From Pseudomonadota bacterium (GTDB lineage: Bacteria > Desulfobacterota > Desulfarculia > Desulfarculales > Desulfarculaceae), in contig JAHJPG010000034.1 of assembly GCA_018819925.1 (NCBI GenBank), positions 1-64,000 on the forward strand: a stretch of DNA of 64,000 nt. Reading direction: 5' to 3'. Below are positions 4,107 through 54,221 of the stretch, one piece after another. The notes below the pieces were generated by a model, which was not told the DNA's origin, did no database searches, and was given only the letters and a program-made list of their open reading frames with translations. How positions within the stretch are numbered: the first letter of the stretch is position 1; every line of letters begins with the position of its first letter. Position numbers and translations under genes: made by a program.

Positions 4107-4634
4107 ATGGCTATTGGTTCATTGATAACCCCCTTTGGGGGGCATGCTCCCCAGATCGACCCCACCGCTTTCGTTGACCCTTCCGCCCGGATCATCGGCC
4201 GGGTGAGCTTGGCTCGGGGAGCCATGGTCTGGCCGGGGGCCGTGCTCCGGGCCGATGACGACCGCATAGAGGTGGGCCAGGGCAGCGCGGTATTGGACCT
4301 GTGCCTGCTGGAAGCGCCCCAGGGACGGCCGGTGATAGTTGAGCCCGGATCGCTGGTCAGTCACCAGGTCTGTCTGCACGGGGCGAGAGTGAAAAGCGGG
4401 GCCCTGGTGGGGATCGGGGCCATAGTGCTCGACGGCGCGGTCATTGGCGCCGGGGCCCTGGTGGGAGCCGGGGCGGTGGTGCCTCCCAGGATGCAGGTGC
4501 CCGAGGGAGTGCTGGTGCTGGGACAGCCAGCCAAGGTGGTGCGCGAGTTGAAGCCTGCCGAAATGGAAGAGGTGGCCAAGCAGTTGGCCGACCTGGCCGC
4601 CAAGGCCAGGGTTTATCTTTCTCAGATGGCTTGA
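4107..4634 (+). CDS. Gamma-carbonic anhydrase-like hexapeptide-repeat protein
   Basis: A 175-aa left-handed beta-helix protein built of hexapeptide repeats, related to YrdA/CaiE/PaaY. Two of the three zinc histidines of the family are visible in the SHQVCLHG segment (His-x4-His). The position where the first zinc histidine normally sits reads VLDLCLLEAP and has no histidine. Carbonic anhydrase activity is therefore doubtful; it may be an acyl-CoA-binding or acyltransferase-like relative. An AAGGA ribosome site precedes the ATG. It follows the TAXI TRAP genes on the same strand. Confidence 0.82.
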   Translation: MAIGSLITPFGGHAPQIDPTAFVDPSARIIGRVSLARGAMVWPGAVLRADDDRIEVGQGSAVLDLCLLEAPQGRPVIVEPGSLVSHQVCLHGARVKSGALVGIGAIVLDGAVIGAGALVGAGAVVPPRMQVPEGVLVLGQPAKVVRELKPAEMEEVAKQLADLAAKARVYLSQMA

Positions 4635-35093: not shown

Positions 35094-36395
35094 CTACTCA
35101 AGCCCGCCCAAGCATTCATCCAAAATGGAGAATCCCCGGTCCAGTTCCTCCCGGCTGATCACCAAGGGCATCAGGGTCCTGATCACGTTGCCGAACTTGC
35201 CGCACGACAAAATCAACAGCCCCTTGTCCAGGCACCGCGACACCAAGGCTTTGGCCTGCTCGGAGGCCGGCGCCTTGGTTTCGCGGTCGCTGACCAACTC
35301 CATGGCCATCATGGGGCCCAGGCCCCGCACCTGGCCGATGATCTCGTATCGGTCGGCCAACTCCTGGTAGCGCGCCGCCAGGTCGGCGCCCAAGGCTTCG
35401 GCTTTTTCCAACAGGCCGTTTTCCAATTCATCCAACACGGCCAAGGCCGCCCGGCAGGAAATCGGGTTGCCCCCGTAGGTGCCGCCCAGGCCTCCGGCAT
35501 GCACCGAGTCCAGAATCTCGGCCCGGCCGATGATCGCGCCCAGGGGCATGCCCGCGGCCAGGGACTTGGCCGAGCTGATGATGTCGGGCTCCACTCCAAA
35601 GTGCTCGCTGGCGAACATCTTGCCGGTGCGGCCCATGCCGGCCTGCACCTCGTCCATGATGAAAAGAATTCCGTACTTCTCGCAAATGGCCTTGACCTTG
35701 GGGAAGTACTCCGGCGGGGGCACGATGAACCCGCCTTCCCCCTGCACCGGCTCCGCGATCACCGCCGCAACCCGGTCGCCGGGCACGTTGTCCATGAAGA
35801 ACTCCTCCAGGTAGTCGGCGCAGTGAACGCCGCAGGAGGGGTAGTCAAGGCCGAAGGGACAGCGGTAACAGTAGGCGAAATGAGCCCGGTAAACCTCGGG
35901 GCAGAAGGGATCGAAGCCGTATTTGTAGGGCATGACCTTGCTGGTCAGGGTCATGGCCATGTAGGTGCGGCCATGGAAGGCATTGTCAAAGGTGATGATG
36001 CCGCTGCGCTTGGTGGCGTAGCGGGCCACCTTGATGCAGTTCTCCACCGCCTCGGCGCCGCTGTTGACGAAATAGCTTTTCTTGGGGAAGTCACCGGGGG
36101 CCAGTTGGTTCAGCCGGCGGGCCAACTCCACATAGGAGTCGTATTGCACCACGTGGAAACAGGAATGGGTGAACTTGTCGGCCTGATCCTTTATGGCCTC
36201 GACCACCCTGGGCGAACCGTGCCCGACGTTCATTACCCCGATGCCGCCGGTGAAGTCCAGGTATTCTTTGCCCTCCACGTCGGTAAGCACCGCGCCCCGG
36301 GCGGACTTGGCGAAGATGGGATGAACGTTGAATGGCCCCGGGGGCACGTTTTGTTCCCGCAAAGCCATAAGCTCTTTGTTGGTCAATTGGTTCAT
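35094..36395 (-). CDS. gabT: Class III aminotransferase, 4-aminobutyrate aminotransferase-like
   Basis: A 433-aa PLP enzyme of the omega-aminotransferase group. VNSGAEAVENCIKVAR binds PLP phosphate, MDEVQAG carries the cofactor aspartate and SSAKSLAAG the Schiff-base lysine. The insert CYRCPFGLDYPSCG is typical of GABA aminotransferases of this lineage. The ATG at 36395 has GGGAGG seven bases upstream; an ATG at 36410 lies before that site. It should move an omega-amino group to 2-oxoglutarate, giving a semialdehyde and glutamate. The neighbouring GDH would recycle the glutamate. Confidence 0.9.
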   Translation of the reverse strand: MNQLTNKELMALREQNVPPGPFNVHPIFAKSARGAVLTDVEGKEYLDFTGGIGVMNVGHGSPRVVEAIKDQADKFTHSCFHVVQYDSYVELARRLNQLAPGDFPKKSYFVNSGAEAVENCIKVARYATKRSGIITFDNAFHGRTYMAMTLTSKVMPYKYGFDPFCPEVYRAHFAYCYRCPFGLDYPSCGVHCADYLEEFFMDNVPGDRVAAVIAEPVQGEGGFIVPPPEYFPKVKAICEKYGILFIMDEVQAGMGRTGKMFASEHFGVEPDIISSAKSLAAGMPLGAIIGRAEILDSVHAGGLGGTYGGNPISCRAALAVLDELENGLLEKAEALGADLAARYQELADRYEIIGQVRGLGPMMAMELVSDRETKAPASEQAKALVSRCLDKGLLILSCGKFGNVIRTLMPLVISREELDRGFSILDECLGGLE

Positions 36396-47491: not shown

Positions 47492-48946
47492 GTGAGAGCT
47501 ATCGCGGCTATTGGCGCCTGCATCCTGTTGGTGGCGAGTCTGGCCCTGGGGGCCGGCTGCACCACCGTATCCACCGCCGACGCACCCACCCCCGCTCCGG
47601 GCCCGGTGGTCAAGGCCGGCCTTCGGGCGGTGATGCCACCGGTGATCGACAAACGCTCCTGGCCCACCGAGGACCCCGGGGTGGCCGATCCCAACATACA
47701 CATCTTCGCTCCGGGCATAACCGGCCAGTTGCGCCAGGGGCTCCTGGCCAGCGGGCTTTTCGCGGCCCTGCCCGCCCCGGATCAGCCGGCGGCGGCGGGC
47801 ATCAACGACCAGCTCACGGTGACCATCGGCGAGTTCACTCTCAGCGTGTTGGGCAACAATCCCTGGTCCGCGGGGGCCTACATCCTCGACGGCCTGATCC
47901 TGCCGGTGTTTGGCGTGGTGGCCGTGGCCACCAAGGGCGAGGTTGACACCGGGGCCTATCTGTTGCCAAGCACCAGGGTGGGCGCCACCCTGGGCGCCGA
48001 GGTGGCCTGGGGGGAAAAGGGCGCCAAGAAGCCGATTATTAGCCGGGGCTACCGGGTGACGGTCGAGTTGGGCGCGGTCAGCCAGCGCGAGATCATGGCC
48101 AACATGGGGGGAATCAGCTCCGAAGACGGAGTGAAGATAGGCAAAGCCCAGGGCATGAAGGCCCTGCGGGAGCTTTCCCTGGCCATCAGCCGGGACCCCA
48201 ACTGGCTCTACCTTAATTCTTACGTGCGTCTGGCCCGGGCCCGCCAGGTAATCGAGGCCTCGACGGACCCCGAAGCCCGCCTGCGGGCGGCCCAGGGTCT
48301 GGTGGGGCTGCTGGCCCCCTTGCCCTACACCCCGGCCGAGGCCAAGGTTTTGCGCGACGGCCTGGTGACCGCGGATTTGCGGGCCGACCAAGTCAACGCC
48401 CTGCGGGCCGGCTACCTGGGCCTGGCCAACGCCAAGGCCCTTCCCGCCGGCCAAAAGCTGACCCAGGAGCAGGCCCAAAAGCTGTTTGACGATCCCGCCG
48501 TGGAGCGGGCCCAAGCCCAGGGCGAAGTGGTGAACCAAACCTTGGGGTTGGTAATGAGCGCCCTGTCCCCGGTGGCCCCCAAGGCCGTGGCTCTGGCGGC
48601 TCCGGTGGAAACCAAGGTGGAGATTCCCACCCTGACCCGGCCCACCATGCCCGACCCGGAGGAGGGCTTCCCGGGCCAGAAGAAGGCCGCGCCGCCGGCC
48701 CCGGTGGCCAAGGCCCCGGCGGCTCCGGCCAAGCCGGTGGCTCTTTCGCCCCAGGCCCAGGGCATGCGGGATCAACTCATCGATCAGCTGGCCGCCGCCC
48801 TCAAGGGCTATCCCCGGCTGCAAGGAGTGTTCGTGCAACAGGCCGACATCGCGGTGGGCCCCCTGTGGCCCCTGGCCAAGCAGGTGCTCATCAAGGTTGG
48901 CTCGCCCCAGACCAAGAGCTACCTGGCCAAGCGGGAGGCTTCTTAG
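47492..48946 (+). CDS. Predicted lipoprotein of unknown function
   Basis: A 484-aa protein starting at GTG with GGGAGG upstream. A lipoprotein signal with lipobox LGAGC (Cys23) is clear, and no lysine or aspartate at +2 argues for retention in the inner membrane. The mature chain has a VMPPVIDKRSWP segment, an Ala-rich helical middle and an Ala/Pro/Lys-rich linker (about 395-420). I do not recognise the family. The stop TAG at 48944-48946 is formed by the first bases of the inverted-repeat element that follows. Confidence 0.75.
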   Translation: MRAIAAIGACILLVASLALGAGCTTVSTADAPTPAPGPVVKAGLRAVMPPVIDKRSWPTEDPGVADPNIHIFAPGITGQLRQGLLASGLFAALPAPDQPAAAGINDQLTVTIGEFTLSVLGNNPWSAGAYILDGLILPVFGVVAVATKGEVDTGAYLLPSTRVGATLGAEVAWGEKGAKKPIISRGYRVTVELGAVSQREIMANMGGISSEDGVKIGKAQGMKALRELSLAISRDPNWLYLNSYVRLARARQVIEASTDPEARLRAAQGLVGLLAPLPYTPAEAKVLRDGLVTADLRADQVNALRAGYLGLANAKALPAGQKLTQEQAQKLFDDPAVERAQAQGEVVNQTLGLVMSALSPVAPKAVALAAPVETKVEIPTLTRPTMPDPEEGFPGQKKAAPPAPVAKAPAAPAKPVALSPQAQGMRDQLIDQLAAALKGYPRLQGVFVQQADIAVGPLWPLAKQVLIKVGSPQTKSYLAKREAS

Positions 48947-49202
48947 CCCGGATATTTCACGAGGGCCGTGCGTCCGGACCGCGCCGGCCACCGGCATACC
49001 GTTTGCCGGCCGCGCCCGGGCCTCGACGTAACCCTGGCTACGCCCGCGGCCCTCACTTGCCGGACGCCTTGTCTGCCGGTGGCTGGCTGTGCCGGGTCCG
49101 GGTACAAACCGTGCCCGCTAAGGCTAACGCTTTTTTCATAAGGAACGCGTAAATACCAATTCGCTGCTCATTGCCGCCCAACCTTCATGAAATATCCGGG
49201 CT
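48945..49202. mobile_element. MITE-like inverted-repeat element, copy 1
   Basis: Terminal inverted repeats of 20 bases (48945-48964 and 49183-49202) share AGCCCGGATATTTCA exactly and match at 18 of 20 positions. The inside is itself partly palindromic: a left core GCCACCGGCATACCGT at 48987-49002 is mirrored around 49073-49104. No reading frame codes for a transposase. A related half copy lies at 54120-54221. It looks like a non-autonomous element of about 258 bases. Confidence 0.6.
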
Positions 49203-49228
49203 TGCAAGGGCGGCGGGGAAGCGCATTC

Positions 49229-53824: not shown

Positions 53825-54218
53825 TATATATGGTGGTTGGTCAGGGGTCAAGTTACAACATGTTGTGTCATATAGGCGCTTGACTTGGTTGGCATTTTAG
53901 CCGGTTCGCCTTTGATTTGGCTGCGGAACGCCCCTATGCGAGCCTCGCGCGAAATACTGGTTTTTGGATCCGGCGTCATGCTGGGGCGGGAACTGCTGGC
54001 CGCTCCGGTTCCCCCTGGGATGCACCTTAGCCGGGCTTACCCGGGCACGGGCGGACATCCGGCGGCGAAAAAGGCGGGGGTCAGCATCAAGCGGGCTTAC
54101 CCGGGCACGGGCGGACATCACTTCGCTTGAGAGCTACGTCGAGGCCCGAGCGCAGCCGACAACACGGTATGCCGGTGGCTGGCGCAGCCGGACGCCCAAC
54201 CTTGATGAATTATGCGGG
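53817..54218. other. Repeat-bearing intergenic region between recJ and glycosyltransferase
   Basis: These 400 bases hold no supported gene. An 81-codon open frame at 53885-54130 is just a translation of the repeats. The region carries a 28-base direct repeat (54032-54059 and 54092-54119) and most of the second inverted-repeat element. Confidence 0.5.
54032..54119. repeat. 28-base direct repeat with 32-base spacer
   Basis: The 28 bases at 54032-54059 recur exactly at 54092-54119; the bases just outside differ, so the repeat length is exact. The spacer is 32 bases. Each repeat contains ACCCGGGCACGGG, a small CCCG/CGGG hairpin. The size matches type I CRISPR units, but there are only two copies and no cas genes in the window. 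Confidence 0.6.
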
Positions 54219-54221
54219 CTA
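54120..54221 (-). mobile_element. MITE-like element, partial copy 2
   Basis: Read on the minus strand from 54221 this begins TAGCCCGCATAATTCATC and aligns with copy 1 (48944 onwards) for about 90 bases. They share GCGTCCGG, the 16-base core GCCACCGGCATACCGT (here 54179-54164) and CGGGCCTCGACGTA. The right half of copy 1 is not recognisable here. As in copy 1, the leading TAG is the stop codon of the neighbouring gene. Confidence 0.6.

Follow-up and report, generated by a model that had tools for sequence, protein, structure and literature searches.

A palindromic MITE with IS1380-type ends in a remade stop codon upstream of thyX in Desulfarculaceae, and the excess of its relatives at stop codons

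Results

The window analyzed here is a stretch of 64,000 nucleotides from a Desulfarculaceae genome, in which a gene with a lipoprotein-like N-terminus and no Pfam match (47492 to 48946, + strand) is followed by thyX (Thy1, PF02511; 49229 to 49918, +), with an ancestral GTG start. Between them lies a non-coding element of 256 bp (48946 to 49201, +), which was aligned with 22 other full-length copies. It is bounded by terminal inverted repeats of about 20 bp (left, 48946 to 48967, +; right, 49180 to 49201, −, the + strand end reading ATG AAA TAT CCG GGC), which enclose a conserved palindromic core (48968 to 49095, +; model R1, 115 bits) and a variable segment of the 3′ arm that carries a T6 run (49096 to 49178, +). 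The inverted arms, 48945 to 48972 and 49175 to 49202, are 28 nt long and 82% complementary. The outer 17 bases at both ends match GCCCGGATATTTCAYGA, a pattern for which shuffles of the window gave 0.25 matches at up to 3 mismatches.

The initial annotation had described a MITE-like palindromic element with 20-base terminal repeats and no coding capacity at 48944 to 49202. The inverted arms, the many copies and the empty sites described below bear out the element, which encloses no transposase; its exact bounds were revised to 48946 to 49201, with T48944 and A48945 belonging to the host.

A genome-wide scan with the end repeat, allowing up to 2 mismatches, gave 27+27 matches in the own genome versus 1+0 with a reversed control pattern. 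BLAST placed the element at no fewer than 45 sites there and gave at least 43 to 52 matches in each of seven congeners; these counts are lower bounds, as 40 candidates were scored per genome. Some 40 or more relatives are therefore present in the own genome and in each congener (Desulfarculaceae), so that the outcome named by the initial annotation as speaking against it, a lack of further copies, did not occur. The full-length copies of the own genome (n = 23, including that of the window) measure 254 to 259 bp, with a mode of 257 bp. A second, partial copy lies in the window at 54092 to 54219 (−), where G54219 supplies the last base of the TAG that ends a glycosyltransferase gene (55331 to 54219, −). 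A weak core match at 35235 to 35292 (−; 22.8 bits) is possibly a remnant or a chance similarity.

Strong matches to a covariance model of the core were found only in the genus of the window and in Desulfocarbo, with weak full-length matches in nine other genomes of the phylum. The pattern scan for the ends reached further, with many phyla among the matches listed. Relatives of 182 to 184 bp, which fold over their full length into a single hairpin with a similar motif at the apex, occur in Gammaproteobacteria, Gemmatimonadetes, Acidobacteriota, and Desulfobacterota. The 257-bp type has the length of these relatives plus about 75 nt in one arm, which is about the size of the variable segment. 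Copies matching only positions 1 to 153 were considered as the left end of a full insertion sequence and proved to be ordinary elements of about 257 bp with a diverged variable segment. Diverged core-like palindromes without terminal repeats, some of them in tandem, were also seen (L178, L163, L164, and L138 at 4319 to 4445); they occur in the family of the window and in other families of Desulfobacterota, and perhaps represent an older repeat with a common core.

All seven congeners lack an insertion at the lipoprotein-thyX junction and carry TAG or TAA at the equivalent place. From these empty junctions, the site before insertion most likely read ...GCTTCT TAG CAAGGG... The insertion is recent and confined to the lineage of the window, having entered the TA of a pre-existing stop codon. 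Comparison with the congeners assigns the left target TA (48944 to 48945, +) to the first two bases of the host stop codon; comparison with the empty sites and other copies places the right copy of the target at 49202 to 49203 (+), where it now reads TT. Together with the first base of the element, G, the left TA again forms TAG (48944 to 48946), which ends the upstream open reading frame of 484 codons. It had been proposed that the element supplies this stop codon. It contributes the G, whereas the TA is the host's own, so that the stop was remade rather than donated whole.

In intact copies, the outward end reads ATG AAA TAT SCG GGC TAR and closes at the flanking TA (113 of 225 ends with an outward ATG). 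Because the right TA has decayed in the window copy, the frame from the ATG at 49187 is open into thyX, giving an in-frame upstream extension (49187 to 49228, +). The initial annotation was thus right that the right end adds an in-frame ATG to thyX. Its use as a start is another matter: at the position corresponding to 49229, congener thyX genes have a GTG or TTG start, and the ATG at 49187 lacks an upstream Shine-Dalgarno sequence, which makes it probable that this codon is not used. A consensus scan of the window copy found no terminator or promoter, and no GC-rich stem followed by a T run was present as an intrinsic terminator, leaving the suggested terminator or promoter activity unsupported.

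Across copies, the target is YTAR with the consensus TTAG, and TA stands at both ends of most copies. Both a target duplication, of 2 or 4 bp, and the empty site are present. For 11 further copies of the own genome, the joined flanks are continuous in congeners (three), most with the TA in place. At two occupied loci (L012 and L018) the left flank is TTAG, and the corresponding empty sites (L401, L402, L404, L409, and L411) read CTAG; this left flank may have been brought from the donor by a piggyBac-like mechanism.

The dispersed copies, inverted repeats, empty sites in congeners, lack of coding capacity, and IS1380 ends identify the element as a non-autonomous MITE. Its ends recur in autonomous elements. 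In Kordiimonas, a pair of ends 1587 bp apart encloses a 448-residue IS1380 transposase (PF13701, 1e-157; NF033539, 4e-117), and ISPa33, ISMaq4, and others have in common ends in which YTAR abuts CCCGGATTTCTCATGA. Ends of this kind, flanked by CTAG, CTAA, or TTAG, are found on plasmids in ISPa33, ISMaq4, ISPosp7, and others. A transposase sharing the ends, as the initial annotation had envisaged, thus exists in IS1380 (Kordiimonas, ISPa33, and ISMaq4), and an intact copy in the own genome was not found. No transposase lay between paired ends among the genus loci examined, and the search of the genus and of Desulfarculaceae gave fragments only of IS1380 transposases. The own genome holds only C-terminal PF13701 fragments and is a draft of 145 contigs in which a copy may have been missed; two such C-terminal remnants (L061 and L062) have no recognizable ends. 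Mobilization in trans by an IS1380 transposase is strongly suggested by the match of the ends to those of autonomous IS1380, although no intact IS1380 transposase was found in the genus. We consider it highly probable that the element in this stop codon is of IS1380 type.

To classify the targets, the flanks of each copy were joined, and genes were called by a codon-usage script for which the window served as training set, so that the stop-codon statistics rest on simple gene calls and not on curated annotation. Among 119 targets, 72 (61%) were exactly stop codons, 32 were intergenic, and 15 lay within genes. The background, 559 further YTAR sites from the same sequences, comprised 52 stops, 211 intergenic sites, and 296 sites in genes, which gives an odds ratio of 14.9 for stops (p = 6e-32). 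The excess persisted against intergenic sites only (odds ratio 9.1, p = 8e-19) and when the background was restricted to sites near insertions (odds ratio 11.5). Matching by tetranucleotide gave 10.5 expected stops against the 72 observed. In the whole window, 19 of 112 non-genic YTAR sites are stops.

The copies are also biased in orientation. Genes read into the element through its right end in 55 cases and through its left end in 23 (p = 0.0004). The bias was seen with co-directional neighbors (31:8) and was absent with convergent ones (9:10). T runs of at least 5 occur on the + strand in 70 of 136 copies and on the − strand in 20. Given this strand skew, the bias may be due to selection against U runs in the transcripts of operons.

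The RNA fold of the window copy, a check that the initial annotation had proposed, was more stable than all 200 shuffles on either strand (z = −4.5 for + and −5.5 for −). A known RNA family was not recognized: Rfam, searched at a permissive threshold, gave no match for the window copy. Covariation across copies exceeded that in shuffles, which ignore relatedness, both in the terminal helix (183 versus 63 cells) and in the core (28 versus 2). In seven orthologous copies, the core changed less than the variable segment (59/905 substitutions, 6.5%, versus 77/542, 14.2%; p = 2.5e-6), and the ends had 28/322. Changes at paired sites in these copies broke the pair in 40 cases, were one-sided with pairing kept in 11, and were compensated in 3. 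Because these changes are mostly one-sided and pair-breaking, post-insertion selection for the hairpin seems weak. Covariation is strong across copies, yet orthologous copies lose pairs; palindromy is therefore probably kept mainly in lineages that are still moving, where the paired variants arise. A functional RNA, proposed from covariation, finds little support from compensatory change in the orthologous copies, although the core changes more slowly there than the variable segment.

Discussion

The family, its ends, the empty sites, the excess at stop codons, and the orientation bias are established by these data. The account that we favor for them would begin with a transposase of the IS1380 family moving the non-autonomous element in trans into the TA of an upstream stop codon, which is a YTAR target. 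As both ends begin with G, or with A in some copies, TA and the first base form a stop codon again, and the upstream protein stays as it was. Over its whole length the element is imperfectly palindromic, and its transcript could fold into one compact hairpin, which would draw the stop of the upstream gene close to the start of the downstream one and leave little unstructured RNA for Rho. Copies may survive in tight operons owing to the kept stop and these effects of the hairpin. The excess at stops would then arise mainly from a YTAR-preferring transposase together with the survival of the least harmful insertions. The inferred parts of this account are that IS1380 mobilizes the element, that tolerance causes the excess, and that the hairpin has the role described; the account as a whole we hold to be reasonably probable.

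Insertion may instead be steered actively to stop codons, with tolerance playing a minor part; for example, the target signal might extend further around stops, DNA might lie exposed at points of transcription or translation termination, or a host factor might guide the element. Tolerance should also favor plain intergenic sites, yet stops are about 9-fold over these, which suggests that a targeting step may be missing from the account. An excess likewise remains over tetranucleotide-matched sites when these are limited to non-genic ones (72 of 104 observed versus 19 expected), and it extends to other phyla, where, in a simpler test, the frame closed by TA and the G of the element exceeded the other two in length at 41 of 67 ends (p = 3e-6). 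However, only 1 of 12 autonomous, plasmid-borne IS1380 copies with resolved ends lies on a stop codon (after bphD), so that steering may not come from the transposase itself. Beyond YTAR the target profile is weak, and an orientation bias restricted to co-directional neighbors fits selection after insertion. We regard steering as possible but rather unlikely. A broader proposal, that full-length-hairpin MITEs across bacteria have a true mechanism of stop-codon insertion, perhaps coupled to the termination of transcription or translation, appears less likely again; if true, it would offer a safe harbor at thousands of genes in gene-dense genomes.

Selection by the host has also to be weighed against IS1380 mobilization with tolerance, namely, that the element was co-opted as a structured RNA at gene 3′ ends, stabilizing mRNA or tuning operons. 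This would agree with the orientation bias, with the covariation across copies and with a core whose rate of change in the seven orthologous copies is half that of the variable segment. That covariation was, however, judged against shuffles blind to relatedness, and mutation rates may differ between the GC-rich core and the AT-rich variable segment. Few changes after insertion are compensatory, and the window copy is absent from all congeners, so that co-option is improbable.

An origin as an IS630/mariner-type MITE like RUP, inserting at TA, would explain the TA at both ends and the TTAG consensus but is contradicted by matching autonomous ends that are those of IS1380 and by the absence of a DDE_3 transposase from eight genus genomes, and it is very improbable. 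Least credible is an origin as a REP/REPIN-type element, mobilized by a RAYT (Y1) transposase: such elements are palindromic, abundant, and extragenic, and four congeners have RAYT-like genes, but RAYT was not found in G005, G007, G001, or the own genome, where copies are equally common and, in the last, recently inserted, and terminal inverted repeats of 20 bp, with a TA at either end, are unlike REPs. RAYT-like (Y1_Tnp) genes do occur about 6 kb or less from thyX in three congeners (L148, L149, and L153).

Under mobilization by IS1380, many dependent miniature elements are added to that family. Where genes are densely packed, mobile DNA needs harmless sites, and ends that both remake a stop codon are a simple solution. 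The family also makes it testable whether insertion biases reflect targeting or survival; were targeting the cause, sequence could be placed in this way at the 3′ ends of genes with the protein untouched. A literature search, mainly outside subscription journals, returned no paper on IS1380-derived MITEs or on stop-codon insertion.

The IS1380 family includes ISEcp1, the mobilizer of CTX-M beta-lactamase genes. Its members ISPa33, ISMaq4, and ISPosp7 resemble the MITE in their YTAR flanks and terminal repeats, (G)CCCGGATTTCTCATGA compared with GCCCGGATATTTCATGA; the MITE differs in lacking a transposase, in being palindromic over its full length, and in its strong excess at stops. REPINs and BIMEs, which are moved by RAYT, are likewise palindromic, abundant, and extragenic, but their mover was not found in the own genome. 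In a large survey, IS1380 was over-represented between co-directional genes (PMC9208149). The accessible accounts of RUP of pneumococcus, Correia/NEMIS, and ERIC describe similarly short, non-coding elements with inverted repeats, TA ends, and about 100 copies. RUP is thought there to use the transposase of an insertion sequence (PMC2229807); its partner is of IS630 type, and the accessible literature on RUP-type MITEs gives no comparable stop-codon statistics. For piggyBac, a related superfamily to which IS1380 is the outgroup, the accessible portion of one account gives TTAA as the target, rarely TTAG or CTAA (PMC10813416), and mentions no stop-codon habit; unlike the MITE, piggyBac is autonomous and eukaryotic. 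In ISPsp10 (IS5 family, IS427 group), the duplicated target TA completes a stop codon upon insertion (PMC4133298). There the target gives the transposase its stop, whereas here target and element together remake the stop of a host gene. The kind of element is already known, and its excess at stop codons is unusually strong and is the part worth following.
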